Below are positions 8,356 through 44,100 of a DNA stretch of 64,000 nucleotides, in pieces. The stretch spans positions 44,668,659 through 44,732,658 of the forward strand of contig CM049313.1 in assembly GCA_026874595.1 (NCBI GenBank). The letters are read 5' to 3'. This DNA is from Sipunculus nudus (Eukaryota; Annelida; Sipuncula; Golfingiida; Sipunculidae). Below the pieces are notes generated by a model. The model worked only from the letters and a program-made list of their open reading frames with translations, was not told the DNA's origin and searched no databases. The translations under genes were made by a program, and so were the position numbers. Each line of letters begins with the position of its first letter. Within the stretch, counting starts at the first letter, position 1.

Positions 8356-8358
8356 TAT

Positions 8359-8785: not shown

Positions 8786-8789
8786 GTAT

Positions 8790-17860: not shown

Positions 17861-17869
17861 CTTTTACAT

Positions 17870-19320
17870 ATTTTCATACGCCCGTCATACGCACCGTCAG
17901 TCCGTAAGTCTTGCTGTCTGTCCGTTAACTTTTAGTGTTGCCAAGATAACTTACCTGGCCTGTGATGGATTTTCACAAAACTCACCATAACTACTAACCA
18001 ACAGATTATCTCACCCTCGTTTGATTATGGGCAAAATCCACACATATTTGATAAGATCACAGGTAGTGGTTGGAGTCGGTTCCTTTTTCATAATCGATCA
18101 TTGGTTTGAGCAAATCGATTGATGATCGATTATTAATCGGTTCAGACAAATATATGCAATTATCAAAGAAATATGAAATTATCTGTGAAACTATACCTGC
18201 GTTTCCCCGGCAGGTATTCTCCTCTCCGACACGAATGTACCGATCCTTCCATGTATATAGACACAATCAGACTAATTTTAAGGATCAAAATAAACGATTG
18301 GCAACGTCGGGTAATATCTTTCATCATGGGAATTAAGAGCATCTAAGAATATTAGGGCCTTTAGAGGGGCTGTTTTTCTAGCACATAAAGTAAGATTTTT
18401 CGGGCCCAGGTGCGCTTGGGGCAGATCTACAAATAAAATTGCAAGCTAGTTAAAAAAAAATCCAGCAAAAATCAAAATACTTGACCGGCCAGTCTAGCTC
18501 AAACAAAGAATTTTTAAGGACGGCCTAAACAGCGGCACCTGGCATCGATTATTTCTAAGAGAATCTCGCAAAATTGGCATAGACCTGGAGACTTTTGTGG
18601 TATTTAAACGCCATCCCGCCCATATTTTGCAATGTACATCTCGTAAGAAAACTCCCCGGTAATTCTGTAGCTCCCTGCGAGTTCACAGATAATAAGTTTA
18701 ATAAGTCCTCCGTTCTCGCATCTACCGTGACATACTCAGTTACATACGGAAATTTTTTGGAAACACAGACTCATTATATGAAGGACAAAATGTGTTAAAA
18801 AATGGAAGAATAATATTTGCCTATAACATAAAGGCATTCTGGAAAGAAAACAATCATTATTATAATGTAATCAATAGTTGCCTTTGGTAATCGAGCGCTT
18901 GAAAGTGACAGCAAACCGACTGACTTTCGATAAAACTCGATGATCGGCCCACCACTAGTCACAGGTCACTAGGCTACTTTTTGGTGTTGTTGCAATAACT
19001 TAAAAGAAAATATGAAGGATTTTAATAAAACTCATCAGAAATGTCAATCAGGTAAATATCTCACATAACCTTGATTTTCTAGCAAAACACACACATATTT
19101 AATGAGGTCAGAGGTCACCACACTTTGGGGGCACAATGATTACATAACGAAAATCTTGTTGATTTTCATGAAACTCATTATACATATTTACCAAAAGAGT
19201 TTCTCACCTCGATTAATTTCCTATGCAGATTTCCCACATATTGAATGAGGTCAGAGGTCACCAGACATAAGCCAGGTGAATTACTGTGATGCACGTTTGC
19301 AGTGCTCTTGTTTACAGTAG
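17870..19320. mobile_element. Tandem-core dispersed repeat (about 145 bp x3), interrupted by a hAT-like insertion
   Basis: Three related units contain GATTTTCACAAAACTCA or variants (17968, 19018, 19160), each ending in GAGGTCAGAGGTCAC or a variant. Removing the hAT-like insertion at 18064-18957 restores even spacing. The head contains a CGTCAGTCCGTAAGTC-type stretch. The tandem core recalls pearl-type non-autonomous elements of bivalves; the ends are not defined. Confidence 0.6.
18064..18957. mobile_element. Non-autonomous hAT-like element, 894 bp
   Basis: The ends are TAGTGGTTGG on the left and CCCACCACTA on the right, forming short imperfect terminal inverted repeats. The flanks ATCACAGG (18056-18063) and GTCACAGG (18958-18965) match in 7 of 8 bases, consistent with the 8-bp target duplication of hAT elements. 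The left interior is rich in ATCGAT words. No transposase frame is present. Confidence 0.75.
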
Positions 19321-21002
19321 AAACATCATGTATTTAGGTTTCCTTCAAAGAAATTATCAATGAAATTGGGAGCTATGGTTACCTTCATGACTTAGTCAAA
19401 TAGCATCAGATATTTAAAACAGTAAATATATAAATATATATTTTACTTAGACCTACTGTTAGATTTTCTATTGTAATAATTTCAAATGTCATTGGAAGGA
19501 TGTTGTTCATTCAAATACCATTATGTCACAAAATATGGGCCATGTTTAGGCCAATGAACTATTGATAATATCCAGTAGCAAATATTAGTGATATGTGAGG
19601 TGAAATAATTGAATTCATCATTTAATTTATATTAAAATCCCTCTCATTTTCTAAAAATAGTGATACATTGCATAAACACATTTTTCATATATTTATGAAA
19701 AAGCAGTATTAGGATGAACTAGATAGCTTAGATTCAGTCATTGCACTGGATTGCAACTTTAAATTATGCTATAACAATACACAGATGCACTAGTACATAA
19801 CAATAAAATTTAAAGTCAGATGTAACAGTATCATCAGTTGTCCCTTTATCTATTCGTTGACAGTATTTTATGAACTGATGTAAATGATGTCCAGCATTTA
19901 ATAATATTACTGGTAAGTCTGTTTGTGCCATTCAGACCTGCCAGGTCATCAGTTATTATGTTTTTCACAGAAATTATGTAAAATAAACATAATTCCATGC
20001 CTTGATAGACTATGTCCAGAACTCCTGTGTTTCGAGAACCATATGAATTAGATATATAGATCCATATTTTGCTACCAGGTGAGTTCCTTTCCTAGAACCT
20101 GTGTTGCATTATTTATGCTAGAAAACCATATCATATTAGGCAGTGGTTCGTGAAGTCCTAACAGCTATACCAGCTGTGCCAGTCTAGTGCCATATAAATA
20201 CCCTAGTAAGGTGAAATGTCATTGAACAGAAATGAATTTGCCACCATCTGATTGGCCAATGACCACATGACAGAAACAACAGAAGGGACTGTATAAGGTG
20301 GCCTATTCATAATTCCTGAAGAGTTCTGGTAAAGACATAATGAATATTAATTAATTTGTCATGACAAACTTTAGTTAAATTATTACAAAGTAATAATTGC
20401 TTGTATTTATTTACAGAATATACATATAGTATAACTATTAGTTAGGACTGTTGTGTACTATATAATAGAAAGTTCCTGTACCTGTAGACAGTTACAAGTA
20501 ACAATCTTTAGGTGCGGATATGATAATGTTCAGGTATCAGTGAGTGGATATAAATGTCAGTATTATTATCAGACATGAAGACTGCACCTCATTAACGCTA
20601 TCAGTAATGATTGTTTACCTGAGGTGTGATGAGAATTCCAGGATGTTTACAGGTTGTGTGTGTCACGAGGACTAGGTCACCCAGTGTAAATACTGTAATT
20701 AATGATTATCAGTGTGGAGGGCAATTTGTCACAGGTGTGGTTACATAATAGATTATCACAGGTACACACATGGCCTTAATTTACATATCAGGTGTTATAT
20801 AGATACAGAACTTACCAGTTTGATACTTTGTATTTTGTTGTTGACGGAAGCAGTAGCAGTTGTTTAATAGGATCATTAGAAGGTAACCTTGATGGATAGT
20901 AATTGTGTACATATAGTATACTTATGATTGAGGTATTATTAGTACAATGATGATGATTATATATTGGTAGCATTTCTGATGATGATATATGTTTAATGAC
21001 AC
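19321..21002. other. Non-coding, no gene seen
   Basis: AT-rich intergenic or intronic sequence with no recognisable feature. Confidence 0.4.
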
Positions 21003-21166
21003 CTGGGGTGTGTTGCAATAAGGTGACTTAAGTCATGTAGGTGACTTAAGCCCAGGGGCATCTGAGTGTCACCATGGTAACCATTATGACGTCACAATTG
21101 TAATCATGGTATTTAGGCCCCCAACTGGGCTTAAGTCCAGTAAAATGTTATTGAAACAGGCCCCTG
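21003..21166. mobile_element. 164-bp MITE
   Basis: Left end CTGGGGTGTGTTGCAATAAG and right end (reverse complement) CAGGGGCCTGTTTCAATAAC form a degenerate inverted repeat. Each is followed inward by an ACTTAAG word. The interior is palindromic-leaning, with CCATGGTAACC. No coding capacity. Confidence 0.65.
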
Positions 21167-21294
21167 ATTATTATTACTTGTATATGATGATTTTAGAGTG
21201 CATCCTGTGACTGATGTTAATTATGTATGGTGGTCATAATGACATTACGATTATAAATGTGCTATTGATAATCCACATTGGTCTGTGGAAACAT

Positions 21295-21590
21295 AGGATT
21301 TTTGTTTATCCCATAACTTTTGAAGCACAGTTTGTTTTTCTTCAAATTTGATACACAAATTGTTTCCACCAAGATCTCAGACATGTTCAAAGACTGATGA
21401 CCTTGAGCTAGGTCTTCAAGGTCAAATCTGCGAATATTTAGGATTTTTGTAAACCCATAATTTTTTAATTACTGCTTCTGCTTCCTTCAATTTTGACCCC
21501 AAAAATATATTTCCACCAATATCTTTTTCTCATGTCTAGTGATCTTGACCTTGTTTTTAAGGTCATATCTGAAGAAACCCTAGTGGCTTT
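21295..21590. repeat. 145-bp tandem duplication
   Basis: AGGATTTTTGTTTAT at 21295 recurs as AGGATTTTTGTAAAC at 21440, and the following sequence aligns through the AAGGTCAAATCTG / AAGGTCATATCTG region. It is probably the remnant of a tandem-core element. Confidence 0.6.
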
Positions 21591-21841
21591 TCAAGTGTCA
21601 GTATATGTACTTCTGAAGATGGGGGCCTATTTTTGAAGGAAAATGTCTAAATTGTGTGGGGTTACTATGGCATCTCCCATGCCAAGAACTTTCTGGTAAT
21701 GTACATAGTGTTTATTATGACAAAATAATCATTGTTATTTGTGCTATTGATAATCTACAATGGTTTATGTTTGAGGGTTGTACTTGGATTGTTTCAGTTA
21801 ACAATAACAGTATACATTTATGATATTTATTGTCATCATAA

Positions 21842-22738
21842 TATCCACCAAAACAAAATTTTGCTGATACTATGTGTTCATGCGGGTTCCCCGGCTACCC
21901 CTGCTGCATTTTTTTCTAGAGAACTCCTCTGAGACCATTAGACAGATCTTTCCAAACCCAGCATACTTAATGGGTCACATATGAACTGGTGTGCAACAAA
22001 GACTGGTGGTTCCACCTTCAATCATTCCCACATGGCCACATGACAAACAGGCCAAAAAGATGTCCCCAGTTAAAGATGAGAGCACAGATGATAGGTTCAG
22101 CTTATACGAGAAAACATGTTAGATGTTAGGGGACAGGTCACAAGATAGGGCTCAGGTTGTGATCTTCATTTTTTCATCATTGACATGAGATATTGTATTT
22201 ACATATATATCAATATGGGCTGCACATTTTAATGTAAATATCAGTTTATCACATAAAAGCTATAAATGTTTTATTATTATTAGCAATTTATATAGTTTGG
22301 CTAATACAAGCTTCTTATATATGTCATATACAGAACCTTAGGTTACAAGTACACAGTTGGCCACAGAGTTTGATACCTTGTAGCCTCACTAGTGGAAACT
22401 TCAGTTTTAATATATAAAATTGAGCCAATAGCATTTTACTCAGTTTTGCTTATTTCAGGTAGGTCCTGGTGCTGCAATAGTCCCTCGCAAATAAATGTTA
22501 AATTTCTCATGGTTTCATTACATTGACAGTATTTAATCAACACAGCTTGGGCCACCTACAATCCAGCATCCATCTAAAGATTTGTTTTTTTGTGAAAATT
22601 GCACATAAATGAGGAGTTTTTTGATGCCGTAAATTTTGGAGTCATGTCAAGTCAGGAACATTCAATGCCTCACTTTACCCTTGCCTCTGTGATTTGGTGG
22701 ATACATGTAGGCTCTTGTCGTCTGCCCGTTTTCTAGTT
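21842..22738 (+). mobile_element. HINE/pearl-like element, copy 1 (diverged)
   Basis: The 5' end TATCCACCAAAACA folds with TTTTGCTGATA. The 3' end has GGTGGATA, then a 6-bp stem (GTAGGC with GTCTGC, two wobble pairs) and the terminus CCCGTTTTCTAGTT. The same arrangement occurs at 48649-49724. Subterminal inverted repeats plus a 3' stem-loop and a CTAG-T end are hallmarks of Helentron-associated non-autonomous elements. The interior (22073-22539) is shared with 27381-27854 rather than with copy 2. Confidence 0.65.
22073..22539. repeat. Dispersed repeat, copy A (inside the HINE)
   Basis: It starts AAGATGAGAGCACAGATGAT and ends GACAGTATTTAATCA. It aligns along its whole length with 27381-27854 in the same orientation at high similarity. 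Confidence 0.85.
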
Positions 22739-23046
22739 ATGATTATCATTAACTTTGTTGAACCACTTAAAGTAAGGGTATTATTAAGACTCAGGTCTGT
22801 TTAGGTGTGTGTTTGTGTCAAGAAGATTTTACAGATTCTAAATTAACTTGACCGATGGAGTACTATCTTCAGGTCATAATAGTAGATATTTGAGTGGATC
22901 CACTCAAGGCATTATATGCAAATTTTCATCATATTTAACCACATCCTCCTCATCATTACTGCTTGTTGTTGTTGTTTCTGTTAGCAGCAGTAGTTTTAGT
23001 AGTATTTCTAAAAAAAATTAATAGTCATTATGTTTTTCTTTAACAG

Positions 23047-23141
23047 AGGATGTAGAGGTATGACCAGTTGAACGACAGAAGAAGCTAGCCCCACAATGGA
23101 CAGTGGTCAGCCTGGGTCCGGGGCTCTCAGCCCTCGTTCTG
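23047..23141 (+). CDS. Exon with start codon (5' UTR 23047-23095, coding 23096-23141)
   Basis: The acceptor TTCTTTAACAG ends at 23046 and the donor GTGAGT starts at 23142. The first ATG after an in-frame-free 49-nt leader reads M-D-S-G-Q-P-G-S-G-A-L-S-P-R-S and leaves phase 1, which joins exactly to the next exon to form GGA. The context CCACAATGG is a good Kozak-like match with A at -3 and G at +4. The peptide is Gly/Ser/Pro-rich with no recognisable signal sequence. Confidence 0.8.
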
Positions 23142-26100
23142 GTGAGTTATGTCAGACCATGTACAGTAATTTTCTCCTTACAGTTACTAGTATCTCTTTA
23201 TTATGGCACCTTTACTTAGGACATTTTATGGTCCCATAAGTAGTAGACTAAGTCCTGTAATCTGTCTAATTAATGAGGGCCTCTATATTATGGGCAAAAC
23301 TAATGCCTCATCAAGTGTCCATAATATGGAGAGTCTTCTGTATTATCTAGGCAGTCAGCTTATGATGATGATTGGTGCTCTGTGTATCTGTTATTATGTA
23401 GAATCTCAGCTCTGATCTTCATAAGTTTCAATGTATACACTTTGTGTGATATGCTGCTAATAAATGAAACTAATAAGAGGGCTTTTAAAATATATTTGAT
23501 ATTCCATATCTTAGTAATTTGTACAACTGGCACAATTAAGGAGTTAACCAATGCATATAAAAATCATTCAGTGCAGATGGACCTTTGCTGCTATCAGAGG
23601 CTCTGACAGGAGATGAAACCATAAATTTCAGCTTTTAGTTTACATTTATCTGCATTAGTAACATTTGTAGTGTTGGAAGGTATTAGGAGGCAAATCAAAT
23701 GCCCTCACTTCTGCTTCAGCTTAAATTTACATATTAATAAAAACATTTTCAATCTGTTTTTAAAATCACTTAAGTTTTTCATACTTGGCACTCAAATGCA
23801 TTTTATTGATGTTTAATTACAATAGGCAGATAATCAATATGAATAATTTTACTTTGTGCTCAATGGTCTGTGTTTGTTTCTTCAGAGAGGATGTCTTAAT
23901 GTCTACCATAATGAATAACATTGTAAAGACCAATGGACTTCTTGAAAGACAACTTTTACCACTGACAAAATTTAATATATCCTAATCTACCTAGTAATTT
24001 CTAAAACTGTTGACAGTCCAGATGGTTGTTCCTGCTGGGCCTCATCACCTACGTGTCCCTCTAAATATGTGTACCACTTGTGCGTCCCACCATTTGTGTC
24101 CCACCAATTGTGTGTCCCAGCACTTGTGTCTCCCATCACGTATGTCCCATCACTTGTTTGTTCCACCACATGTGTGTCCCACCACTTGTGTGTCCCACTA
24201 CTTGTGTCTCACCACTTGTGTGTCCTAGCACTTGTGTCTCCCATCACATGTGTGTCCCACCAATTGTATGTTCTACTACTTGTGTGTCCCACTACTTGTG
24301 TGTCCCACTACTTGTGTCCCAACACTTGTGTGTCCCACCACTTGTGTCTCCCACTACTTGTGTCCCACCACTTGTGTCTCCCATCACTTGTGTGTCCCAC
24401 CACATGTGTGTTCCACCACATGTGTGTCCCACCACTTGTGTGTCCCACTACTTGTTTCCCACCACTTGTGTGTCTGGCCTTTTGTGTCTCCCATCACATG
24501 TGTGTCCCACCACGTGTGTGTCCCACCACTTGTGTGTCCTACTACTTGGTTCCCGCCACTTGTGTGTCCGGCCTGTTGTGTCTCCCGTCACGTGTGTCCC
24601 ACCATTTGTGTGTCCCACTGCTTGTGTCTCACCACCGTGTGTCCTACCACTTGTGTCTCCCCTCACATGTGTGTCCCACCACGTGTGTTCCACCAGATGT
24701 GTGTCCTACCACTTGTGTGTCCCACCACTTGTGTCTCCCATCACATGTGTGTCCCACCACATGTGTGTCCCACCATTTGTGTGTCCCACTACTTGTGTCC
24801 CACCACTTGTGTGTCCCACTACTTGTGTCCCACCACTTGTGTGTCTGGCCTATTGTGTCTCCCATCACATGTGTGTCCCACCACATGTGTGTCCCACCCA
24901 ATGTGTGTCCCACTACTTGTGTCCCGCCACTTGTGTGTCCGGCCTATTGTGTCTCCCATCACATGTGTGTCCCACCATTTGTGTGTCCCACTACTTGTGT
25001 CCCACCACCGTGTGTCCAACCACTTGTGTCTCCCATCACATGTGTGTCCCACCACTTGTGTGTCCCACTACTTGTGTCCTACCACTTGTGTGTCCCACCA
25101 CTTGTGTCTCCCATCACATGTGTGTCCCACCACTTGTGTGTCCCACTACTTGTGTCCTACCACTTGTGTGTCCCACCACTTGTGTCTCCCATCACATGTG
25201 TGTCCAACCACTTGTGTGTCCCACCACTTGTTTGTCCCACTACTTGTGTCCCACCAGTTGTGTGTCCTACCACTTGTGTCTCCCATCACATGTGTGTTCC
25301 ACCATGTGTGTCCCACCACTTGTGTGTCCCACTACTTGTGTCCGACCAATTGTGAGTCCCACCACTTGTGTCTCCCATTAAATGTGTGTCCCACCACTTG
25401 TGTGTTCCACCACATGTATGTCACACCACTTGTGTGTCCCACTACTTGTGTGTCCCACCACTTGTGTGTCTGACCACTTATGTGCCCCACCATTTGTGTG
25501 TCTGTAACCTGAGTATGTTCTGCCAAAGATGAGTTGTGTAGACCTGCTCATTTACTTTTCATAAGCTGAAATTTTCAACATCTTTTAAGAAAATGAAAAT
25601 ATGTTTTTCATGGCTCTAGACAGTTGAGAGATGATCATACTGGGCTATTAGCACGCAAGCTGAAGATTTTAAGTGGCAACCTGGTCAGTGTTGCTGGTGG
25701 GGGACCTTATGGAAGGGGTTGTGTTTACTTATCTTAATTAATCTATATATGTTATTCGTAATCATCTCAGATAGAACCTTAGTAATATAATTAATTAAAG
25801 AAAATAAGGCAGGGATTAGCCATAGTGGACATAAAGCTAGAGGGGAGTTTCTAGGGTAGAATTGGGGGGGGGGGAGTAAACAGCCCCCCTCCCCAAAGTG
25901 GATGTCAGATAATAATCGGGTTGTCCAACTTAATTAAAGTGGATGCTCCGCAGTAATCCTGTGGACAGCTTTCTGTCTGTCCAACCATAAAATACTTGAA
26001 CATGCACTTAATTAGGAACACTTTGAGATATTGCCTGGGACTTGGACTTTTTTTGGTGAGACCAATGGCTGTTAGGTGAAACAGAAAGGGCTGACGGACC

Positions 26101-29100
26101 AAGCACCTATTGGACTATAGGCCTTGGACTGAACTGCAAGGGTCGTTAGCTGGTTTTTGCATATATTAGCTTATCTGAACTGATCTGTAACAGTAATCCA
26201 TAGCTTAATTTAAAAGCTGAGCCACATATTAGCTTATCTGAACTGATCTGTAACAGTAATCCATAGCTTAATTTAAAAGCCGAGCTACATGAATACTCAT
26301 TTGACAGTGATAACGTTAAACATAGTCTTAAGTGTTGTGTTGACTTGATTAATATACACTACACACCCCCTGATATCACTTGTTGGAGACATCAAGTACT
26401 CACTGACTTCAGTCCATGAAATATTGGTATGTTTGTGTACAACACTGTTATGGGTGTCACAGCTGGCCACAACAGTGGTACCTAAGCCAAGTGTTCAAAT
26501 GAAAGAATGGCATGCACTGCAAATAGAAAGAGCAGTTAACATACCCACCATATTATAATAGCTTTGGATACATAATTATTATGTTATGAAAAACTTATAC
26601 CCAGTTTCTGTATTACCTCATATTATCTTTAATTTATATTTACTCATGTAATCTTCTTATCTGTTTTGTACCTTTTGGTTATTGCCTTTAACATGGGACT
26701 GTATTAATTTAACCTGGTAATAATAATAATAATGATAATACCAGTGATAATAATAGTAACAGTAAAAAATTCATTTGTAGGATGAAGATTGAAGTGCATA
26801 CGTATATACAATATAGAATATTTAGAATTTTAAAAGTGGAACTTTCATGTACCCTACAATTTCAGCACCATATCAATTGATTGATATGTAGGTTTTTTTT
26901 ATAAAGGTACCAGATCTACAAGTATGACATCAGCATGAGAATATAAATCAAGAAGTTTACATTCAAGTTTTTGATTTTTTACCTGGATCTTGCTCTTTCT
27001 TTGTATGCTCAATGAAGATTTTAAAAAAAATAAAGATATAGGTGTAAATTAGCAAATGGTGTGATTTCGTGTTCACAGTAGTTCTCATGTTTGTTCCACT
27101 AATTCCAGCACTTACTGTTCAAGTAAAATTTCATAATGTACCAGAGAGAAATAAAGAAACCTTGGTTCATGGCATTCAGTGACACAGCAACAGATGTTCA
27201 AAGGGATATCAGCACAACAGAGGGCTCAAATGTGCAGCAAAGATGTGCACTACACAATAATGACTTTTAAAAATACCTCCAGTGCCATGTAGCATAGGCT
27301 TGGCCCTTTCAGGATCATATCATCCATGGATTGTTCCACTTGTGTTTTTGCCATGACCCTATGATGATGGTCCCAAGTTCAAGATGAGAGCACAGATGAT
27401 AGGTTAAGCTTAGATGAGAAAATATGTTAGAAGTTAGGGTACAGGTCACTAGATAGGGCTTAGCTTGTGTTATTCATTTTTTCATCATGGATGTGAGATA
27501 TTGTATTTACATGTATATCAATAAGGGGCAGCACATTTTAATGTACATGTCAGTTTATCACATATAGATAAAAAATGTTTCATTATTATTAGCAGTTTAT
27601 ATAGTTTGGCTAATACAAGCTTCTGTTATGTCCTATACAGAACAATAAGTTACAAGTACACATTTGGCCACAGAGGTTGATACTTTATAGCCTCACTTGT
27701 GGAAACTTCAGTTTTAATATAGAAATTTGAGCTGATAGCATATTACCCAGTTTTGCTTAGTTCAAGTAGGTCTTGATAGATGGTGCTGCATTTTACCCCT
27801 CGCAAATAAATGTCAAATTTCACATGGTTTCAATACATTGACAGTATTTAATCATCTGATTGAAAGTGACATTATTAGACAGTACCAAAAAAAAATAATG
27901 CATGGTTTTGTAGGGGCTTTGCTTTTAAATGAATTAGATTCATAGATCCTTTTTTGGCACCGCTGACTGAAAGTTATCTGAGCAGTAGTGATCACTCTTT
28001 GTCCGTTGTCAGTCTGTCCATCTGTCTGTCTTTTAACGAAACACAATTTTTAACTGCTGGACCTAGAAACTTCTAATTGAAAACCCATGGAGGGCCATGA
28101 AAAATATTATTGGAAACCTTAAATTAAGTCCTGGTAACCTATATTTTGTGAACTACAGGCTGAAAACATGATTTTTAGCACCCAGTCAGTCAGATGGGGT
28201 ACAAATTGTTTTTGCTAGGCCTAGAATCTTTGTACATTATGCTGATAGAGTTCCATAAAAACATGCTGACCTATATTACTGGCCAAAACCTTTTAAAGCA
28301 CCCAGACAGTCAGACAGGGTACAAAACTTTACTGTTGTACCTAGAATCTTCTGTCTTGACATCCAGTGATATCCTTAAAAAATGTTCAAGGTAATTTTTA
28401 GCTCAGCTGACTGCATACAGACAGGCAAGATTTTGTATGAATGGCTATACATATTATCATGAAACTTTTTCTTCCTTTTGATTTTTAAGAACTTAAATTG
28501 CTACAGTTGAATTGGGATACCACCTACGAAATTTAGAAAATTTAGAATAAAAAATATATTTGAACAAATAATATTTTAATATGTTTACTATCCTATATAT
28601 GAATTAAGCATTTAAAGTAGTATTCAGATTAAATGTTAATTTCCTCAGGCAGTTTGTTTATACGGTTAAGAATATAAGAATCAATAATCCATGCAATCAC
28701 CATTTTCTGTCATCATAATACTGGTATGATTAATATACATGTATAAATTATTCATATTAATTTTACAGGACCAATTAGGCTTGGCACTAAGGAATTGAAC
28801 CAGAGCAACGATTCTCTGCTTGATACAGGGGGCACCACAGGTTCAAATTATGCTCCGTCAAAATATACTCTGTCTTCCGTAGATTCAGGCTTGTATCTGC
28901 GGGGCTCAGGCACATGGAGTGGGGTGAGAGTAAGTGAGATTCCATCTGCTGCCCTTGGTGGGGATTCCTCTCACCGCATGCCAACATTTCTTCACCTTGC
29001 TTTGTCCATAGCTGTACCAGTTGCACCTCACTTGAACTTCTCAGCACTGATTCACCATTTTATTTCAGCATGCACCCTGCACGTTTATCATCCAGTGCAC

Positions 29101-32100
29101 CTTTACAATTATTATATATCTTACTTCAGACATTTTCCCTGTATATCCCTTTATGTATAGGCAATGCTGTGCTCATTTTATTGTTTAGAAGGAGTTCTAT
29201 GGAAAAAAAAGAAAAAAAATTGCTCATCACTTTTCTTTTGGTTAATATAATTTGTTTCCAGTACATTGTGGTATTTCTCTATCTAATTATGTATATCTTA
29301 TTCTTTGTCTTATTTTGCGTCAATTATCAGTGAAGCATCTAAATGCCATTTAGGTGCATTTTCATCATCTATCATTTAAAGAGTTAATTGTATCATCAAT
29401 GCTAAATTTTAATTCAGCTTTAAGCATGCTTTAGCAGGATGTTGTTTAGAAGAATAAACTACCAGGTACACTCACCTTCACAATCATCCCCTGATAATAA
29501 TAATTCACAAGCATTGAAAATTTACATGAAATTGCAAATGTTGGTACTAATAACACATTCACAACAATTTAATGAGCACTGTTCTTTCCTTAAAAGGTCA
29601 CATGCTTTTACGAACCATGTGTATTCTGTAACACCTTCTCACCTATTCAGTTCATTTTCATTTCCAGGATTTCTTCTTTCACATCATCAATAAAGCTGTT
29701 TATTGTTCTCCAACAATTCACTAGGTGGCAGCACTGGTATAATGACACCATATCACTGGCATTTTTTAAAGTTTAATTCTGGTGTCCAGACTTCAAAATA
29801 ACATATCATATGCAGAAAATGTAAAGCAAGGCAGTGGATATATAATATTTTTAACTTAAGTTTCTGCAAGGCAGTGTATATATAATATTTTTAAATTAAT
29901 TTCAGGCATTTCCAGATATTGATATTGAAACACAAATTACAATAAATTTGATTTTATGTGCAAGTTTTAGGTCACATTTTGTTTAACATTACAGTGATTA
30001 TAACAAGAAAGTTTAAAAAGTTTTATCAAAGGATGTAATATAACATATATTGAAATTTTTAATTGATCCATATCCTCAGTTTTTAACAGAATCAGTTGAA
30101 AATATGAATCGATATACATTTACAATATGTTATATGTTATTTCATACTGCCCAGTCTTGAGTTCAGTAGTTCTTCCACAGATCACTGTAATACTACCCGT
30201 AAATTCAAATATGTCACAAATCAAGCACAGGACTCCTCTTTGGTAGTTAATGTGTGTTTCATGACAGCAGTTGCAGGATATAATAAAAGGCCTGGTGTAT
30301 ATCATTATAGCAGTGAAACCACCATGACCTCATATCTTTCACATCAGTCACAATCTATCAGGCTGTTTTATAAATCCTATATATGATTCATCGCATTATC
30401 ATTCTAATCATAGTCTCTGCCCTTTTTTCTTGACTACCTTTTAGATGGATCAGAAACTATTGGTGAGATGTATTTTGACAATGAAACAGTTTCAACTGCA
30501 ATTGCTGAGGCTGATGATAGTCCCTCAGCTTCTAGTCCTTCAGCTGATGAAATGCCGACAAGAACAGATAATTCTAGTGGAGATCTCACTGAATCAGATA
30601 TTCAGAATATTCAAGCTTCCAAACCATCAGAACAAAATCCGGAGACAATGCATGCTGAAGAGGAAGTCACATTCGAGAACAGTACTATACAGAGTCCATC
30701 AAATGATTATAATCCAAATGCATCATTATCAGCAACCAGTCCAAGTAAATCTGACAATTCACTGCTGACCACTCTTGCTGAAGCTGACAATAGCCCCTCA
30801 GCTTCTAGTCCTTTTGTTGATGATATGCCGACAAGAACAGATAATTCTAGTGGGGATCTTACTAGATCAGGTAGTCAGAATATTCAAGCTTCCCAACCAT
30901 CAGAACAAAATCCGGAGATAATGTATGCTGAAGAGGAAGTCACATTCGAGAACAGTACTATACAGAGTCCAGCAAGTGATTATAATCCAAATGCATCATT
31001 ATTATCAACCAGTCCAAGTAAATCTGACAATTCACTGCAGACCACTCTTGCTGAAGCTGACAATAGCCCCTCAGCTTCTGGTCCTTTAGTTGATGATATG
31101 CCGACAAGAACAGATAATTCTAGTGGAGATCTTACTAGATCAGGTAGTCAGAATATTCAAGCTTCCAAACCTTCAGAACAAAATCCGGAGATAATGTATG
31201 CTGAAGAGGAAGTCACATTCGAGAACAGTACTATACAGAGTCCATCAAATGATTATAATCCAAATGCATCATTATCATCAACCAGTCCAAGTAAATCTGA
31301 CAATTCACTGCAGACCACTCTTGCTGAAGCTGACAATAGCCCCTCAGCTTCTGGTCCTTTAGTTGATGATATGCTGACAAGAACAGATAATTCTAGTGGA
31401 GATCTTACTAGATCAGGTAGTCAGAATATTCAAGCTTCCCAACCATCAGAACGAAGTCCTGAGGCAATGTTTGCTGTAGAGGAAATCAAATCCGAAAACA
31501 GTACCATTCAGAGTCCATCAACTGATTTTCATCCAAATGCATCTTTATCAATCAGTCGAAGCAAATCTGACAATTCACTACATATAACTCCTGCTGAAGC
31601 TGACAATAGCCCCTCAACTTCTAGTCCTTTTGCAGATGATATGCCGACAAGAACATATAATTCTAGTGGAGATCTTACTAGATCAGGTAGTCAGAATATT
31701 CAAGCTTCCCAACCATCAGAACAAAGTCCTGAGGCAATGTATGCTGTAGAGGAAATTACATTTGAGAACAGTACCATTCAGAGTCCAACTGATTTTCATC
31801 CAAATGCATCATTATCAATCAGTCGAAGCAAATCTGACAACTCACTACAGATCACTCTAAATACACCACCAACTGTAAGCAGCTCCAGTAGAGAACTGAT
31901 CTTGTCAACTTTACTGAATAAGCTTTCTCAGCATAACCAAGAAGCTATTTCTGCTGTTAAAATAGTTACCACCAATTCAGTATCAACTGAACTGCAGATA
32001 AATGAAACTACGCATTTTGCTGAGGATACAAGGTCTGAGACATCAAAAGTTAATTTGCCTCTGTCATTGCCAAGCAAAATTGAATCAGTTTCTACAGAAT

Positions 32101-35100
32101 TAATAGCAAGAGGATTTGAAGCTTCATGTAGTCAGAATTCTTCACAATTCCTCAATTCTCCAAACAGCCTAGAAGTTGTGAATATTATCAAAACGCCTGG
32201 AGAAATCAAGAATGAAAATGATGATGATAACACTGTGTTAGATGACATTAATGAGACATCATCACTCAAAACGGAAACAGAGTTAGAGTCCAGTGAAGCT
32301 TTAGATATATCAGACAGTCAGCAATCTGGAAAGGCTTTAGCTGTATCTGACAGCCAAAGATCTAAAATAAGCATGGGATCTAGGTCAAGGTCTCCAGCAG
32401 GAAAGAATAACTTTTGTAAGGCTTTGGATGTATCAGACAGCCAAAGATCTGATATAATCACAAGCTCTAGGTCAAGATCTCCAGCAAGAAAGAATGACTT
32501 TGGTAAGGCTTTGGATGTATCAGACAGCCAAAGATTTGAAATAATCACAAGATCTAGGTCAAGATCTCCAGCAAGAAAGAATGACTTTGGTAAGGCTTTG
32601 GATGTATCAGACAGCCAAAGATCTGAAATAATCACAAGATCTAGGTCAAGATCTCCATCAAGAAAGAATGACTTTTGTAAGGCTTTGGATGTATCAGACA
32701 GCCAAAGATCTGAAATAATCACGCGATCTAGGTCAAGATCTCCAGCAAGAAAGGATGACTTTTGTAAGGCTTTGGATGTATCAGACAGCCAAAGATCTGA
32801 AATAATCACGCGATCTAGGTCAAGATCTCCAGCAAGAAGGAATGACCCTTGTAAGGCTTTGGATGTATCAGACAGCCAAAGATCTGAAATAATCACAAGA
32901 TCTAGGTCAAGATCTCCAGCAAGGAAGAATAACCCTAGAAATCATCTGGACCTATCCGACAGCCAGACATCTCAAATAATCAAGAGATCCAGACCAACAT
33001 CTCCAGCAAGAAAGAATGACCCTAGTAATCAATTGAATGTATCCAACATCCAAACATCTGAAATAATCACAAGATCTAGGGCAAGATCTCCAACAAGAAA
33101 GAATGACTCTGGTAAGACTTTTGATGTATCCAACAGCCAAAGATCTGAAATAATCACGCGATCTAGGTCAAGATCTCCAGCAGGAAAAAATGATGACTCT
33201 GGTAAGGCTTTGGATGTATCCGACAGCCAAAGATCTGAAATAATCACAAGATCTAAATCAAGATCTCTTGCTAAAAAGAATGACTCTAATGGAGAGATAA
33301 ATTCAGCAGGCAGTCAGAAATCTCTCAGAACAGCAAGGTCTACATCAAGTTCAACAAGGAAGAGTAATGCTGCTAGGGCTTTGGATTTTTCAGACACTGT
33401 GTCTCAGCAGCATAATTCTACAACAGTAGACAGACTTACATTGAAAAATGATAGAGTATCTGGTGGTCCTTCCTTCCAGCTGGCAGTACCAGATGCTAAA
33501 TATATCTCAACATCAACTAAAACTGACAGTACTAGCAGTTTTGTATCAGGGAGAAGAACTTCTTTTCTGTCTACCACATTTTCTAGTGAGACATGTCTGG
33601 ACAACATGTTGTTAGAAGATATGCACATATCTGATGAATCAAGAAGCAATGATAGGATTATTGCTACAAAATCTGAAGGAGAAGCTGTTACACCAGACAT
33701 TAACCTCTCTACAACAACAGTTAAAGTAGAACCCACAACTGAGGGACACCAGTTAGGTGTTAAAGTGGAAATGAAAGACAGTACTTCACATCCTGTCATC
33801 AAAGTAGAACCTGCCTCACTTACATGCAGTTCATATCATAATGATAAAAACAATAAGGAAATAGCCACCCCTCTGACACCTACATACTCTTTAAAGGAAG
33901 AGAAATTAGAAAACAACCATTCAGCAAGAGTGAAGGAAGAGCCCACAACTGAGGGACCCAAGTTTGGTGTGAAAGTTGAAAAGGAGGACAGTGCTTTACT
34001 TCCTGCCATTAAAATAGAACCTACCTCATTGACAGATGACTCATCTTGTGAAGATAAAACTGCTGAAGTTACAAGTTCCCCTTTGACTCCTGAATACTCT
34101 GTGAAGGAAGAGGAAATACAAAACAGCCATTCAACATCACCATCTGAATTCATTGAGGATTTAAGCAGAGGAGCATCTAATTCTGAGCAACAGGAACAAA
34201 GTGTCCACTGTCCTGTGAAGAAGGAAGTGAGCACTGATCTATCATTAATACAGGCAGCTGCTTATACACAATCTTTGAGTGCATGTGATGATAACCCACA
34301 GAAATCTGATCGATCCCAAGCAGCCAAGCACCAAGACAATGCTCAGTCTCTTGAAGCAAATAAGACTGTTATTGAAAATTCTAATGTTGGAGAAGCATAT
34401 GCAGATGGGCACATATGCCACATAAGCAAGAGTGCCTCATTTGCATCAAAGTCAAGTAGGGTTAAGCAGGTGAAGACCGAAGATGTATCACACATTTCAG
34501 CAGAGCAGGTACCATCTCACATTGCCCACCATGGAGAGGATCATGTTGGAACAGTTGGAATAGCTAGTTGTGCTTCACTTACAAGTGTCCCTCATATGTC
34601 ATATCAGGGTGAAACACTGAGGATTGAAACTGATAGACAGACAGATTATCCAGAGAGACCCACATCACCTCAGATCATAATCTCCAGTTGCAGTACTGAT
34701 GGCTCCCATATGTCTGGTCTGCATGGTGGACTATGCAGTAATGAAACCTTTGGCTCCAGCTGTAGTGATATTTCTGAATCCTCTGTGCACAAAGGTTACA
34801 TTGCATCTGAGGAGTCAGCAAGTTCATTTGGGTCAATCAGTCATCATGCAGTATGGGGTTATAGCCCAGCAGCTTCAGAAATGAATGGAATCAGCAATGA
34901 TATGGTTGACAGTCAGGTTACGTCCTCTGTAGATGGCAGACATGTATGTGCAGATAAAATAATGGCATCCAAAGTGAAATATCAAAGCTCCTCTGAAGAT
35001 GAACTCCAAACTGACAGGCCCAAGTGTGTTACCACCAAGCCTTTTCCTAACAAGAAGAAAAAAGTGGAGATTACAAATTTTGATTGCAATACAGGGGTTT

Positions 35101-38100
35101 ATTCCTGTGGGTCAAAGAACTCTGATTACGAATCATACTGGGCTGTGAAAGATGGGTGCAAGGAAGGCGACATTACTGGACCTGAAGATTATATACAGCC
35201 TCTTGACATCAGATCCTCAAAGGTCAGTTTTAGTGATGTAGTTCAATTGAATTACTTTCAGCGTATTTTTGACTCAGAAACTGCAGCTACTGTTGGATCA
35301 GGCAGTGAATTAAGCAAGCAGTCCTTGCCCAGTTCTGTTGATGGGAGAAACAATGGTTCAATTAGGAGTATCCTGAAAGATATTCCAAGGGGTTCAGAGA
35401 AAAGACGTTCTTCCCTTCCATCTTACCTGGAGCCAGATGCTATCACTGAAATGGCTTGTGCCCAAGCCGGATACCCCAGGTCCTGCATGGAAATGAGCAG
35501 TGAGTCAAACAATGATACTCAGATTATTCAGTCTCAGTATAAGACAGACAGCATAAATCCTACAGCAGTAGACATATCACCCAGTCATGAACCAAACATA
35601 CCTGGTGTTTATGCAACATACCATTCTCCTACTACAGAGCATGTGTATTTCAGTGATGGTATTGAAGACAACCCAGCAGTTATTGCAACTAATGGTGGAA
35701 CTTCCTCTGACTTTATCTCTGAAAACAAACCCAAAGAAGAAGATCAACAAACACTCACGGCTAAGTCATTTGCTGGTTTTGATATGACAGATGAAGCATC
35801 AAGACAGTTACCAGCAAAGAAAGGTTACAGTGATGTGTGTGAGTACAAGAAGCAATATATGGTGCCAGGATATATAACAGATGAGAGAGATTGTGAAACT
35901 ACTTCTTCAATTGCAAAAGGTGATTCTGTAGCTGATTGGGTCACCCCTTCTCAGCTCTTGCACAAGTGCGAAACTTTGGATGCAGAGAGAAATACAATCC
36001 TTGAATATACAACATCTGCCTATCAGGAAAAGCCAAAAGCTGATATATCAAATAAAGTTGCAGGATATCAATCAGGCCCAGCAAATCTTCAAATGGTCCC
36101 TGTTCAACATATGAATATGAATGCTCACAAACCTAAGCAACAGATGCCAGGTCCTGTTGAGACTAAACAAGAACCTAGTGCTCATGGGAAAACCCAGATT
36201 GAAAAAAGTAACATTGCTACTAAGGAAGACTCAAGTGAAGCTTATCTTCCCACCTCATCACAGCTGTTCCAAAAATCAAATGGAGACCATGGTATAGGAA
36301 CCGACCAGAGTGCAGTTCATCTTCCCACTTGCTCACAAATCTTCCAGAAATCAATAAACAGAGACCATGGCATTCATGCAGGAGGCGTTGGCACATTGAG
36401 TCAATTTCAAGCACCTTCCTCTTTGTTAATTAATCAGTCACAAGAGGGCAGCAGTGGTGAGACCAGTGAGCCCGGTGCTTGGCTTCCACAACAATCAACT
36501 TGCACAACTGAAGGCAGTAACATTGCTGGCAGGCTTCCCACCTCACAGACACAGCACTGTGTGACTGAGTGTGGGAATTTGAGATCAGCAGAGCTTTCTG
36601 CTTCTGGATTACTTGAAAATAAGGAACTAGAAGAAAAAATAGGAACTGAACCTGTCATTGTGAACAACAATAAAAAAATATACAAAGCAAAATTGATAGC
36701 TACAAGTGAGTTTGATGGGGAAAAATACACTTCTGTTTTGAATGAGCCTGTTGAGATAACCAATATTCCAAATAAGCTAATAACTCGTGGAAAAAGTGCA
36801 GAGATCTCTGTGAAAAAAGTCATCCAAACCAAGTTACACAAAATGGCTGAAAAGGAGGTAGACACCAAGGAGGCAGTGACCTACTACAACAACACAAGCA
36901 TGTCACTGACAGAGCTGGTGTCCATGTATGATGCTACAGAGAAAAAGCTTGGAATGGGAGGCTATAAAGATGATTTTGACATGGAAGCATACTTGAAAAG
37001 TCTGGATGAGGTAAATCTGGAGTCAACTGAACAAATGGAGGTAAGATAGTGCTACACACGGAATGATGTCACAAACTTAATGAGTTCAGTTTACTATATT
37101 TTCATTTCATCACATTACTGCTCATTTCATATAAACACTTCATATCTTTCTCACTTAAATCATATCTATCACTCTTTGTATTTTAGTTGCAAATCATGAC
37201 TATGCATGCACCATTTATTTGTATATAATTGCACATGGTAAACTCTGTGGATAGTGTCTGCTTTCTCTGTATCACCTAATAGCTTCTAATTCACCATATT
37301 GATTTTATGAATATGAATCTAGCAATGTACAATTTAAAATCTATAAGTGTTATATATGTATCTCAAATAAGAATGATAGAGCTTTTTTGTGTACCTTTCT
37401 GCATTTTTACAAAATTTAAATAGTATCAGTTATCTTAGTGTTGGTTTTTAACTGGTTACTAACTGAATGCTTTAACTTATACAATAACTGCATGGTATTT
37501 TACTACTTACAACAGACAGTGCTGCAGTTAATACATTGTTTAAATTCAACAAATAAGTATGATCCACGGTTTTGTTATTGAATGATTTCTCACAACAGTG
37601 ATAATATCCCAGTGTTACTACCCATGGAATTAATTCATATTGCTGAAAATTCTTTTGGGATCATAATTTTTTAAGTCTTTATACTTAAAAAAAATAACCT
37701 TTTAAGTCACTGCCCTTGATACTATAAAACTCTTAAATCTATAAAAAAAAAAAAAGAAAACACAAAATTGTTAAATAATCTGGCCATTGTTGTTTGCTTT
37801 TATCATATTTTCTCTGCTCATGCCGTTGATGCATAAGAAAAGGGCCAGCTTGAAGAATCAATAATTTGTTGGTTCATTGCATGTGGATACAGGGATACTT
37901 TGCCTGCCAGCTCAATGGCTGTATAATCGGACCACAGCCTCAGAATTCCTGATTACTAATTAATTATGCACAGGTTACCTGCATGGACCACCTGGCAGTG
38001 CATGCAGGCAGTTGAGGTTTCATAGCCTCTACACCTCTGACTTAGAACATAAAAACAACTGGTTATATTGTGACCTAGAACATACAATCAAATAATGATC

Positions 38101-41100
38101 CAGTGACAATTAAAAAACAATTAAAACCTCAAAACCAACTGATATAAGATGTATATTTAAAGATATATAAATAATGATAAATGATGCCAAATCAATTTAA
38201 TTAAATTCTGTTTGAGACTTTGTTTTAATACTGTAATAATCCATTCATGGAATATTATTACAAAGTTATCCTTTTAGAGCTAATGCAGTACCATTAAATG
38301 AAAAAGTTATAATTATGATTAATATCATGTACACATAGATAGAAGGAGACAGAGATATGTAATATCTGTCATGGCGCAAAGTAGTACATATATATTTCTA
38401 TCAAAGTTCGGTTCTTAGACTGGAACTCAGATCTTCCACATAGCTTCTCACAGTGGCATGAAATATTAAAATCAGCAAATAATTCTTTCTTTTCTCCATT
38501 CACTACATTTTAATACCAGTGCATTTATTTTGCTAATTGTAGCATTTTCAAATAGACATTTTGGTTTCATAGTTGTTAATAAATTTCACTATATATTGTA
38601 TTGCACATAATTGCTACCATTTTCTAGTTAGAGAAAGTTGTCATTGCAGATTGAGCCAGTGCTGATAATAATTAGGGTTTTGAACGGGTTGTTGGGCTGT
38701 TAATGTTTTCGGTAAATCAGATGCTTCATGAAAGACTAAATTTTTGTTTATTTCAGACTTTTTTATCTGGATAAGAATGTGAAATAAATAATTAAGTTTT
38801 TGCTATAATAATATCTAAATATGAAATATATTTATGCTTTAATGATATCAAAATACTGTTACTGCAGCTTTCAGTCTTATTACAAACAATTTATATGGTG
38901 ATTATTTGTAGAAAGAATAACTGAATTAGATAATTTGAAGATTATAACTTTTACCTATAATACAGTTCCCTCAGAACATTATTTATATTAACATATTACT
39001 TGATATATAAAGTATAGTTATTTTGGTATATTTTTCTTTCACTATTATAAAAACAGATGCATAAGTGATAAATTTAAATAATATGAAGAATTATAAACTG
39101 AGACTGCAGAGCTGATATTCATATGCATGGTGAAAGTATATTATTTTGATGCACAGGATTCGCTAGCTTTCATGTTATACATCCTGATTAGACTCACAGA
39201 TTGTCTGTACACTTCTTTTTAAACCTGATATCCAAAGAAAAAATAAAGTCTTGTTAATGTTATAGTCTTTTTAAAGGTTTTACCATCTGTGGTTAATAGA
39301 TAATGTTTTATGATAGTGGCTTAAAAAATTTTAACTGTGTGCTGTGTCCATTCTTTTGTCTCATTTATTTTGAGTTTTGTATCCACACATTGATGGTACT
39401 TTTGTTCTTGTAATTTTCAGGGATCAGGGTTTGCTGGTGGAAGTCCAGGTGTCCCCGACAGGACCAGTGTGCTTGAAAAGGTGAACATTTGGCTCAAATA
39501 TAATCACATTCTCAGATTAGTTTTGCAGATGAATATTATGGTCATTTAAAATTAAAAGTAGTGCAAATCTAATCCTTATTTGGTTTAGATAAAGCCAGTA
39601 AAATATACCATGACTCGACATTTCCTCAATTCACATAGCAGACTGATGTAATTAAATTGTATGTAGCAGTTGAAATAAGAAATCAAATACCCTTCCTTAA
39701 CTGGGATATCAGTATCTCAATTAGGTAATATAATTGCATTTTCAGGAAATGTTGGAAAGCCAGATCAGAAAAATGCAGATAGAAAATTCAAAACTGCAGA
39801 CAGAGAACAAGATGCTGAAAGAAAAGTTCAACAGATCCCAAGGTAAGAGCGAGAAGGCTCCCAGTCAGTCTAAGAGGGCTCTGTGGGAATGTAACAGGGC
39901 TTAGTGTGAGTGTAACAGGGTTCTCAGGATGTGTAACAGGGCTTAGTGTGAGTGTAACAGGGTTCTCAGGATGTGTAACAGGGCTTAGTGTGAGTGTAAC
40001 AGGGTTCTCAGGATGTGTAACAGGGCTTAGTGTGAGTGTAACAGGGTTCTCAGGATGTGTAACAGGGCTTAGTGTGAGTGTAACAGGGTTCTCAGGATGT
40101 GTAACAGGGCTTAGTGTGAGTGTAACAGGGTTCTCAGGATGTGTAACAGGGCTTAGTGTGAGTGTAACAGGGTTCTCAGGATGTGTAACAGGGCTTAGTG
40201 TGAGTGTAACAGGGTTCTCAGGATGTGTAACAGGGCTTAGTGTGAGTGTAACAGGGTTCTCAGGATGTGTAACAGGGCTTAGTGTGAGTGTAACAGGGTT
40301 CTCAGGATGTGTAACAGGGCTTAGTGTGAGTGTAACAGGTTTCTCAGGATGTGTAACAGGGCTTAGTGTGAGTGTAACAGGGTTCTCAGGATGTGTAACA
40401 GGGCTTAGTGTGAGTGTAACAGGGTTCTCAGGATGTGTAACAGGGCTTAGTGTGAGTGTAACAGGGTTCTCAGGATGTGTAACAGGACTTAGTGTGAGTG
40501 TAACAGGGTTCTCAGGATGTGTAACAGGGCTTAGTGTGAATGTTACAAGGTTCTATGGGAGTGTAACAGGGCTTAGTGTGAATGTTACAAGGTTCTATGG
40601 GAGTGTATCAGGGATCAGAGCGAGTGAGTGTAACAGGGTTCTCAGGATGTGTAACAGGGCTTAGTGTGAGTGTAACAGGGTTCTCAGGATGTGTAACAGG
40701 GCTTAGTGTGAATGTTACAAGGTTCTATGGGAGTGTAACAGGGCTTAGTGTGAATGTTACATAGGTTCTGTAGGAGTGTATCAGGGATCAGAGCGAGTGA
40801 GTGTAACAGGGTTCTGTTGAAGAGCATCAGGGCTCAGGGTGAGTGTAACAGGGTTCTGTTGGAGAGCATCAGGGCTCAGGATGAGTGTAACAGGGTTCTG
40901 TTGGAGAGTACCAGGGCTCAGGGTAAGTGTAACAGGGTTCTGTGGGAGTGCATCAGGGCTCAGGATGAGTGTAACAGGGTTCTGTGGGAGTGCATCAGGG
41001 CTCAGGGTGAGTGTAACAGGGTTCTGTTGGAGAGTATCAGGGCTCAGGGTAAGTGTAATAGGGTTCTGTTGGAGAGTATCAGGGCTCAGGGTAAGTGTAA

Positions 41101-44100
41101 CAGGGTTCTGTGGGAGTGCATCAGGGCTCAGGATGAGTGTAACAGGGTTCTGTTGGAGAGTATCAGGGCTCAGGGTAAGTGTAACAGGGTTCTGTGGGAG
41201 TGCATCAGGGCTCAGGAAGAGTGTAACAGGGTTCTGTTGGAGAGTATCAGGGCTCAGGGTAAGTGTAATAGGGTTCTGTTGGAGAGTATCAGGGCTGAGG
41301 GTAAGTGTAACAGGGTTCTGTGGGAGTGCATCAGGGCTCAGGATGAGTGTAACAGGGTTCTGTTGGAGAGTATCAGGGCTCAGGGTAAGTGTAACAGGGT
41401 TCCATGGGAGTGCATCTGGACTCAGAATGAGTGTAACAGGGTTCTGCCCCTCAGGAGTGTATCAGGGCTCAGAGTGTGTGTAACAGTGGTAATGTGTCAG
41501 GGGCTATGGTGATTGTGACAAGGGTCAATGTGAATATGACAGTGGTCAGAGTAATTATAAGTGTGACAGCAGTCATGGTAATTGTGACAGTGGTCAGGGT
41601 AGGTTTGACTGCAGTCAAGGTGAGTGTGACAGAGGCCAGGGTAAGTGTGACAGAGGTCAGAGTGAGTGTCACAGCAGTCACAGTGATTATGACAGTGGTC
41701 AGGGTAAGTGTGACAGTGGTCAGGGTAAGTGTGACAGCAGTCAGGGTGAGTATGACAGTGGTCAAGGTAAGCTTGACAGAGGTTAGGGTGAGTATGACAG
41801 CAGTAAGGGTGAGTGTGACAGTGGTCAGGGTGAGTATGACAGCAGTCAGGGTGAGTATGACAGCAGTCAGGGTGAGTGTGACAGCAGACAGGGTGAGTGT
41901 GACAGTGGTCAGGGTAAGTGTGACAGTGGTCAGGGTGAGTATGACAGTGGTCAAGGTAAGCTTGACAGAGGTTAGGATGAGTATGACAGCAGTAAGGGTG
42001 AGTGTGACAGTGGTCAGGGTGAGTGTGTCAACGGTCAGAGTGAGTGTTATAGCAGCTGCAAGCTGATATGACAAACCTTAATATAAATGTGACCGGTAAA
42101 TTAGGATAACTTTACAGCTCTCAGCTGATAGCTAAGACATTTTGTTCATAGGTGTTGCATCAAATTCAGATGGTCAATATAATTTCCCATGTTTATTTGT
42201 AATAACTTGTCTTCCTATTTAGCAGTTTATTTACTAAGACAAGTTTTGATTTAGTTAAGACTTTGTTTCCTACATATGTTAAATATATTAATTCTGGATT
42301 GTTAACAGAAAACTTGTCCTTGCTGTATAAAACATGACACAAACATGAATATCTTCTTTATTGATTGTTAACAGCAAAGATTAATGAGTTGGAAAGTCAG
42401 CTGGAGACAGCCCACGAGGACCTGGACGTAATGGCCAGACAACACGAGGCTGAGATCTCGTCATTCAAGAAAAATTCACGAGAACACAGCGAGCTGGAAC
42501 GCCAAGACCTGCAGGCCCAGATAGTGGCCCTCACCAAGTCCCTTGAGATGGCGGAAGCTGAGGTCAGCTGCTGTTGCCATAGTTATTTTAGTGTCTACAC
42601 TTAAATGAACAGTCATATATTTAGACTGGTTTTCCATAGGCCTTGTGAGAGTTGTGTTCACCATGTTTATAATGCATTTAAATGGTTTATATTCAAACAC
42701 TTCCTTTTAATGTTATTCCTTATCTTGGTAACACAACAGTTCTGATAAACGTACAGAATAGCCTCATTCATTTGCTGTTCTTTCACTAACCAAATTTTCA
42801 TTCTACTCATATGCATTTTTCACTCATCAGATTTGGGTATAACCTTCAGACTATAAGCTTTAGGTTGGACTTGGCTTGAGAATCGCATATCTCATATTTA
42901 CTTAATATAAATATTTAAATTTTCGTACGTTATGATATGGTTAAGTGTAAATTTTCTTTTTCAATAAAGTAACATGTTTAATGTCCAAGTATATTGTTTT
43001 TAGCCCATTTCATCTACCTTCAAGTAACTTTCACCCTCTCATGTCACCAATAACTTCTTCAGATCAAATGATGGTGATAAAAAGAGGTTATAAAGTAAAA
43101 TTTACATTTCTATATGATATTTGACTGTTAGCATGCCATGATCTTGTTCTTTATATGGATGTTGACCATAGTAATACATTGTGTTACAGAAAGCCTCTAT
43201 AGAGAAGCAGGCTGAGATAGCTCGCATGGCAGCTGACCGTGCACGTGTGTCATCAGAGAAATCCAGTATCATAGCAAGTTTCAGGACAGAAGTTGCCACA
43301 CTCAAGGTCAGTTGGAAAAAATTTGAGATCACCATTACTTTGCACTGGTCTTTTCCAGATGAACTGTGAATATTGCTGACAATTTCAGAAATATATGGAG
43401 AAAAGAGACTAGAGAACAAAACCTGTTACAGCTACATATAATATTCTGTATACACATGCAAGAATGGGTATGGCTTTGATAGCAGCAGACATTTTCAGTT
43501 TGACAGTTTAGGATGCCCTAACTCATTAAAATGAAATGTGAAACATAATCCCAAAAATATTTGCCTTTTTAGGCTTATGATCATATAATTATAATTCAGT
43601 ACAGGCCTGTATGAACCCACTTGTTATGACAAAGTTGCAAAGAAGATAGTGTTAGATTACATACAATTGTCATCAAGTACAAAGAGCACACCGAGAAAAA
43701 TTAGTGACATTTGTTTCTGAATATCAAGATCTAAACTGGTGTGTGGTGTCAAAAATTTTCAGGGCAGTGAAAAACAGCCATTGGTTTTGTGATAGCTGTG
43801 CTAATCAAGCCTTCTTATAGGTTATAGATTTTTTTAAATATTGGCACTAAATTCTGCAATGTTTTGCGTTTAACTGGTCATTAAGTTATATTACATAAAA
43901 TAAACAACAAGACTGGCATTGAACATTCTTTATTTTTGTAAAATTTTATCATTGGTCCACTGTGTCAGTCTGGTATTCACTGGTTAGCAGGCCATGGCAG
44001 CTCTGTTGTCTAAAACCTTACATTTTTGGGAATATATTTTACCCCCAAAAATCAAGAATGGTTTATACTTGGGTCTGGCTTAAACAAGCAGTTTTACAGT

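Follow-up and report, generated by a model that had tools for sequence, protein, structure and literature searches.

What kind of gene carries a single predicted exon of 6.6 kb, how did the exon grow, and was that growth selected? These questions were raised by a 64,000-nt stretch of the Sipunculus nudus genome (GenBank assembly GCA_026874595.1, contig CM049313.1, positions 44,668,659–44,732,658, forward strand), which is called the window here and whose numbering is used throughout. The genome searched comprised 1.43 Gb in 153 contigs, and the window was located on contig C8. The reading that we favour, at about even confidence, is that the exon belongs to one gene in which a disordered docking arm, grown by repeats, is carried on a coiled-coil scaffold that probably acts in the nucleus or in mitosis.

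The exon was located within a forward open frame of 2,211 codons (30414–37049).

30445–37040, + strand: giant predicted exon of 6,596 nt and 2,198 codons, open frame with AG/GT splice sites.

The borders of the exon were the acceptor TTTTAG/AT and the donor ATGGAG/GTAAG, the latter being strong with a score of 6.3. An earlier note on this DNA had described a single exon of about 2,200 residues, and the open frame with its splice sites confirmed it within a predicted gene model. An in-frame ATG was found about 24 nt inside the exon, and the frame read past the donor reached a stop 9 nt on (37049), so that the exon alone could be read as a first or a last exon. It is predicted to be an internal exon.

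Three unrelated tandem repeats and a weak fourth were located in the exon.

30507–31862, + strand: 91-residue tandem repeat, five copies (91, 91, 91, 90 and 89 residues), from Tandem Repeats Finder (TRF; 273 bp × 5.0) and protein alignment.
32331–33290, + strand: 29-residue tandem repeat, 11 copies (29–30 residues, degenerate edges) with SRSRSP in 8 of 11, from TRF (87 bp × 11.0) and protein alignment.
33717–34136, + strand: 70-residue tandem repeat, two copies with four psi-K-x-E motifs in each, from protein alignment.
36246–36353, + strand: suggestive weak fourth repeat, LPTxSQ[LI]FQKS twice at a 25-residue pitch.

The three main arrays (91 residues × 5, 29 × 11 and 70 × 2) had been noticed before, and TRF, for the 273- and 87-bp units, and the protein alignments agreed on them. 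The fourth repeat barely exceeded its null: it scored 60 where 10 shuffles reached at most 59, and it had 9 identities in 11 positions where 60 shuffles gave no more than 8. The copy spacings were whole codons and the exon was open throughout, in line with the earlier claim that all arrays kept frame. The mean protein identity of the copies was 82% for the 91-residue unit, 64% for the 29-residue unit (two degenerate edge pieces included) and 54% for the 70-residue pair, in which 38 of 70 residues were identical. A reverse-strand frame of 207 residues (32318–32941) was the antisense of the 29-residue array.

The exon probably grew as several segments, unrelated to one another, were duplicated in tandem and in frame within a disordered region. 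According to the excerpted text of Homma et al. (2025, PMC12457776), longer internal exons hold more tandem repeats, which mostly encode disorder and keep the frame. The giant exon was like those exons in being long, predicted internal, disordered and repeat-bearing with the frame kept, whereas it was far longer at 6.6 kb than the ranges given in that text (1–540 and 1–840 nt) and contained several unrelated units.

When the copies were compared with one another, the pooled ratio of nonsynonymous to synonymous differences (pN/pS) was 0.55 for the 91-residue unit (95% bootstrap 0.32–0.98) and 0.66 for the eleven 29-residue copies without the two degenerate edge pieces (0.38–1.23), the pairs of copies not being independent. 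A slightly different alignment gave 0.58, 0.64 (edge pieces included) and, for the 70-residue pair, 0.69. The repeat copies were under weak constraint at most, with no sign of selection favouring more copies. The values of 0.55–0.66 allow simple expansion under weak constraint, and the selection for multivalency suggested earlier was left unsupported.

Tandem arrays were also present outside the predicted exons of the window. At 959–6154, a 50-bp unit was repeated about 104 times (92% matches). A 16-bp array with a 78/94-bp higher order occupied 24073–25502, where all three forward frames were open for 414–459 codons; these open frames are produced by the repeat and do not mark a gene. Two arrays (42 bp × 37; 21/63 bp) at 39890–42055 lay in the intron predicted to separate the first coiled-coil exon from the second and contained long open frames on both strands, which an automatic gene finder might take for exons. 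A 280-bp repeat of 2.4 copies (95% matches) at 48877–49540 lay within another predicted intron. With at least five sizeable arrays outside predicted exons, a repeat-forming mutational process is general here.

These arrays bear on a neutral account, which we regard as tentatively plausible, in which the exon arrays are by-products of replication slippage and unequal exchange in DNA prone to tandem repeats, were tolerated in a disordered region, and have a copy number without function. The large non-exon arrays (the 16/78-bp one extending over 1.4 kb), the pN/pS interval of the 29-residue unit that includes 1, and the described trend in long internal exons (PMC12457776, as excerpted) agree with it. 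However, the frame was kept throughout, and the bootstrap pN/pS of the 91-residue unit was below 1 in 98% of draws.

The product of the giant exon is probably disordered. The encoded part was Ser-rich (16.9%), and 15 of 21 hundred-residue segments, which covered all but the last 98 residues of the exon, were classed as disordered by the Uversky charge–hydropathy boundary. Single-sequence AlphaFold2 (AF2), run with no alignment, gave a mean predicted local distance difference test (pLDDT) score of 39.1 for the N-terminal half and 31.6 for the C-terminal half, low values that are weak evidence of disorder when obtained in this way. The earlier description of these residues as disordered was supported by both measures, short of proof. 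In these models, the C-terminal half contained helices over the last ~77 exon residues (pLDDT ~42–53) and one short helix elsewhere, and the N-terminal half contained one helix and a low-confidence strand ladder across the 29-residue array. The β ladder (block pLDDT ~41–69) was taken as an artefact of single-sequence repeat folding.

The surrounding exons were predicted with a home-made model based on splice-site scores, codon bias and phase, with weights that were our own and partly trained on this gene.

28769–28957, + strand: upstream coding exon, 189 nt, predicted; its phase out, 1, fits the giant exon.
39421–39480, + strand: 60-nt exon after the giant exon, predicted and phase-neutral; skipped by the dynamic-programming model and added for its fit.
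39746–39842, + strand: first coiled-coil exon, 97 nt (EMLESQIRKMQIENSKLQ...), predicted and phase-compatible.
42375–62389, + strand: 17 more coiled-coil exons inside the window, predicted and phase-compatible, the first at 42375–42562 (188 nt).

The flanking exons were short, as had been noted before, at 189 nt upstream and then 60, 97 and 188 nt downstream, all predicted; the coding parts of the other predicted exons ranged from 80 to 283 nt. Past the window end, 17 further exons followed, the last at 97763, where an open frame ran to a stop near 98045, ~34 kb outside the window. The tail of the model past 97956 ran into a separate downstream reading frame and was left out of the gene. The prediction comprised 38 exons, 21 inside the window, with one upstream and 36 downstream of the giant exon. 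The exon at 28769–28957 was the top scorer of four candidates listed over ~50 kb upstream, although another stretch scored higher under different codon weights and an alternative path took 25620–25696. It contained no Met, which means that the model is missing a further exon on the 5′ side, and the model protein of 4,054 residues (63 + 2,198 + 1,793) lacks its 5′ end.

A DNA search with two copies of the 91-residue unit and four of the 29-residue unit matched at this locus only. The giant-exon protein likewise matched only here among 21 of 177 candidates scored, and all 14 matches of the last 805 model residues fell at this locus (56 of 645 candidates scored). No second copy of the exon, its repeats or the coiled-coil tail was found in the genome by these searches, which skip very common words and score the best candidates only, so that their negatives are not proof of absence. 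A query with mollusc haemocyanin matched nothing, and neither did its control, so that this negative carries no weight.

It is quite unlikely that the giant exon and the coiled-coil exons form two separate genes, or that the former is a cassette or lies at one end of its gene. The gene structure was derived wholly from genomic sequence, the stop 9 nt past the donor permits a last exon, tandem arrays fill the intron that follows the first coiled-coil exon, and the bridging exon of 60 nt was the one skipped by the dynamic-programming model. Against this, the giant exon ends in phase 0, which fits both 39421–39480 and 39746–39842, and phase 1 of the latter fits 42375. The donor, GAG/GTAAG, is strong (6.3), and the AF2 helices were placed on the last ~77 exon residues (pLDDT ~42–53). 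We infer that the gene is expressed and that its two halves are joined.

The downstream 1,793 residues showed a period-3.5 hydrophobic power of 15.6 standard deviations over shuffles, whereas the giant exon gave a z value of −0.5. Ten prolines were found in the first 1,700 residues (four of them within 401–500) and six in the last 93. About 1,700 residues are predicted to have coiled-coil periodicity, and heptad periodicity was found over this extended length. They may form a rod, presumably dimeric, that bears the 2,200-residue arm as a flexible extension. At the usual helical rise, ~1,700 residues give a rod length of perhaps 250 nm.

The favoured reading gives the arm a docking role, and three motif features were located in it.

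33720–34112, + strand: eight clustered psi-K-x-E motifs, predicted SUMO acceptors, within the 70-residue repeat pair.
35046–35069, + strand: basic run PNKKKKVE, a sequence motif that we take to be like a nuclear localization signal.
35220–35279, + strand: PP1-docking candidate KVSFSDVVQLNYF, an RVxF motif followed by a hydrophobic residue (+6) and a YF pair (+8/+9); the only match in the 4,054-residue model.

When twenty patterns were counted in the giant exon against expectations from 2,000 shuffles, psi-K-x-E occurred 13 times (1.8 expected), [VILMF]K.EP 4 times (0.10), RSRS 14 times (0.12) and SP/TP 43 times (28.9), the repeats inflating these counts. The psi-K-x-E motif showed no excess in the coiled coil (4 vs 5.4 expected). 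In the giant exon, MELT-like (1), SxIP (0), KEN (0) and PIP-box (0) motifs were at chance level or absent, and kinetochore KNL1-like and EB-binding readings were dropped for this reason.

The eight clustered psi-K-x-E motifs fell within 140 residues, where at most three were reached in 1,000 shuffles, and were spaced by 13, 13, 31, 13, 13, 13 and 31 residues. In each of the four motifs, K and E were the same in both 70-residue copies (8/8), against 38/70 identical residues overall (p = 0.005, in a test framed after the motifs had been seen), and this retention stands against the neutral account. The cluster is predicted to be a set of SUMO acceptor sites. IKxEP is a form of the SUMO synergy control motif. 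As far as excerpts describe the synergy control motifs found in nuclear receptors and in factors related to them, the present motifs were similar in being [VIL]KxE acceptors, several followed by P. Unlike them, there were eight in 140 residues, mostly at a 13-residue pitch and multiplied by tandem duplication. This predicted ladder had not been foreseen in the earlier note and is the part most worth testing.

The sequence KVSFSDVVQLNYF is a candidate for PNUTS-type docking of PP1. A SILK motif was located at 35367, downstream of RVxF, which is not the usual order. In human PNUTS, TVTW (398–401) is followed by L407 and YF (410–411), at +6 and +9/+10 (PMC10731240, as excerpted), and the spacing of RVxF, the +6 hydrophobic residue and YF in KVSFSDVVQLNYF matched this RVxF-PhiR-PhiPhi arrangement within one residue. 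Unlike in PNUTS, the site is a single candidate, and the protein containing KVSFSDVVQLNYF is not claimed as PNUTS.

The absence of a recognised family, also stated earlier, was upheld by the Pfam and PDB searches, which gave no usable match. In the giant exon, no Pfam family was found at E ≤ 1, the Ki-67 repeat included, and nothing in the coiled coil exceeded its curated cut-off. TMF_DNA_bd, Rab11-FIP3, ATG16 and DUF3584 were below their cut-offs (E 0.0001–0.002) and were set aside as typical of any coiled coil. Neither the giant exon nor a 470-residue coiled-coil piece, taken from an early, incomplete exon set, matched PDB sequences. Pfam scans of upstream frames yielded nothing usable, and a limited literature search found no described protein with such a combination of repeats and coiled coil.

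It is somewhat unlikely that the gene is a divergent orthologue of some named protein of the centrosome or of mitosis (TACC, Ki-67, KNL1, ANKRD26, pericentrin or one like them), with its disordered half changed beyond recognition. Such proteins share the general layout of a disordered, repeat-rich, phosphatase-docking arm, some with a coiled coil. However, neither the exon nor the coiled coil gave a Pfam hit above a curated cut-off, and the genome matches to characteristic domains were on other contigs. The Pfam scans of the coiled coil did not list the CCDC144C domain of ANKRD26, the C-terminal PACT domain of pericentrin/AKAP9 or the CCDC158 profile. Each of the three had a single genome match, on contigs C1, C13 and C10, respectively; that of CCDC158 was weak at 26.9 bits (28.3 with neighbours), the cut-off being 27. 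TACC_C gave no hit in the coiled coil or genome-wide, and the lack of any genome match makes the sensitivity of this exon-by-exon search doubtful. DUF3496 had no genome match, which does not show its absence. For the N-terminal ankyrin repeats of ANKRD26, a tblastn search of a 124-kb region with a generic ankyrin consensus gave no convincing match; the best, at E 2.2, fell within a coiled-coil exon.

The nearest layout was that of Ki-67 (MKI67), in which a huge exon 13 encodes 16 repeats of ~120 residues and which also has an RVxF motif (PMC8354752, as excerpted). The huge single exon, tandem repeats, PP1-docking motif and disorder are common to both, to the extent covered by that excerpt. Unlike Ki-67, the present exon contained three unrelated repeat units rather than one, without a Ki-67 repeat match, and it was followed by a coiled coil, a term that does not occur in the excerpted text of the Ki-67 review (PMC8354752). 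The N-terminal FHA domain of Ki-67 was not seen in three frames of 15400–28769 and one frame of 6200–15400, a scan that an exon-split domain could escape.

Several points weigh against the favoured reading. The gene structure is known from genomic sequence alone, no domain was found to anchor a function, and constraint on the repeats is weak. In the coil, period 3.6 nearly equalled period 3.5 (1.70 vs 1.89) and 4% of scanning windows passed the strict cut, so that an amphipathic helix is better shown than a coiled coil. The psi-K-x-E count fell from 13 to 9 when one 70-residue copy was removed, and in the giant exon SUMO-interacting-like motifs were below expectation (4 vs 7.8) and inverse SUMO acceptor motifs were at expectation (3 vs 3.3). 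The composite PP1 pattern, which arose in 55 of 5,000 shuffles, was written after KVSFSDVVQLNYF had been seen, and RVxF alone (1 vs 0.42) and SILK alone (1 vs 0.14) were not significant.

The exon is real and striking as a prediction, its mode of growth is ordinary and already described, and the gene is predicted to encode a large coiled-coil protein. In the favoured reading, the sites on the arm would be an SR-type array for phosphorylation, a cluster of SUMO acceptors and a single PP1-docking site. The place of action would most likely be nuclear or mitotic because of the nuclear-localization-like run and the SUMO and SR content. We consider it unlikely that tandem duplication multiplied a SUMO ladder of 13-residue pitch beside the 11-copy SR array and the PP1 site on the rod, so that repeat number sets the capacity for modification and can evolve quickly.

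The next gene downstream, from about 112492 in window numbering, contained a reading frame with VLLVGYMRGGTTFLESLF, which resembles a sulfotransferase; a Pfam scan of the 142 residues ahead of VLLVGYMRGGTTFLESLF gave nothing significant.

If the SUMO cluster is real, the locus would show clearly that tandem duplication can add modification sites to one scaffold, and copy-number variation among individuals would be a natural experiment. If the arrays are a neutral by-product, the exon would still serve well as an extreme illustration of the growth of very long internal exons.

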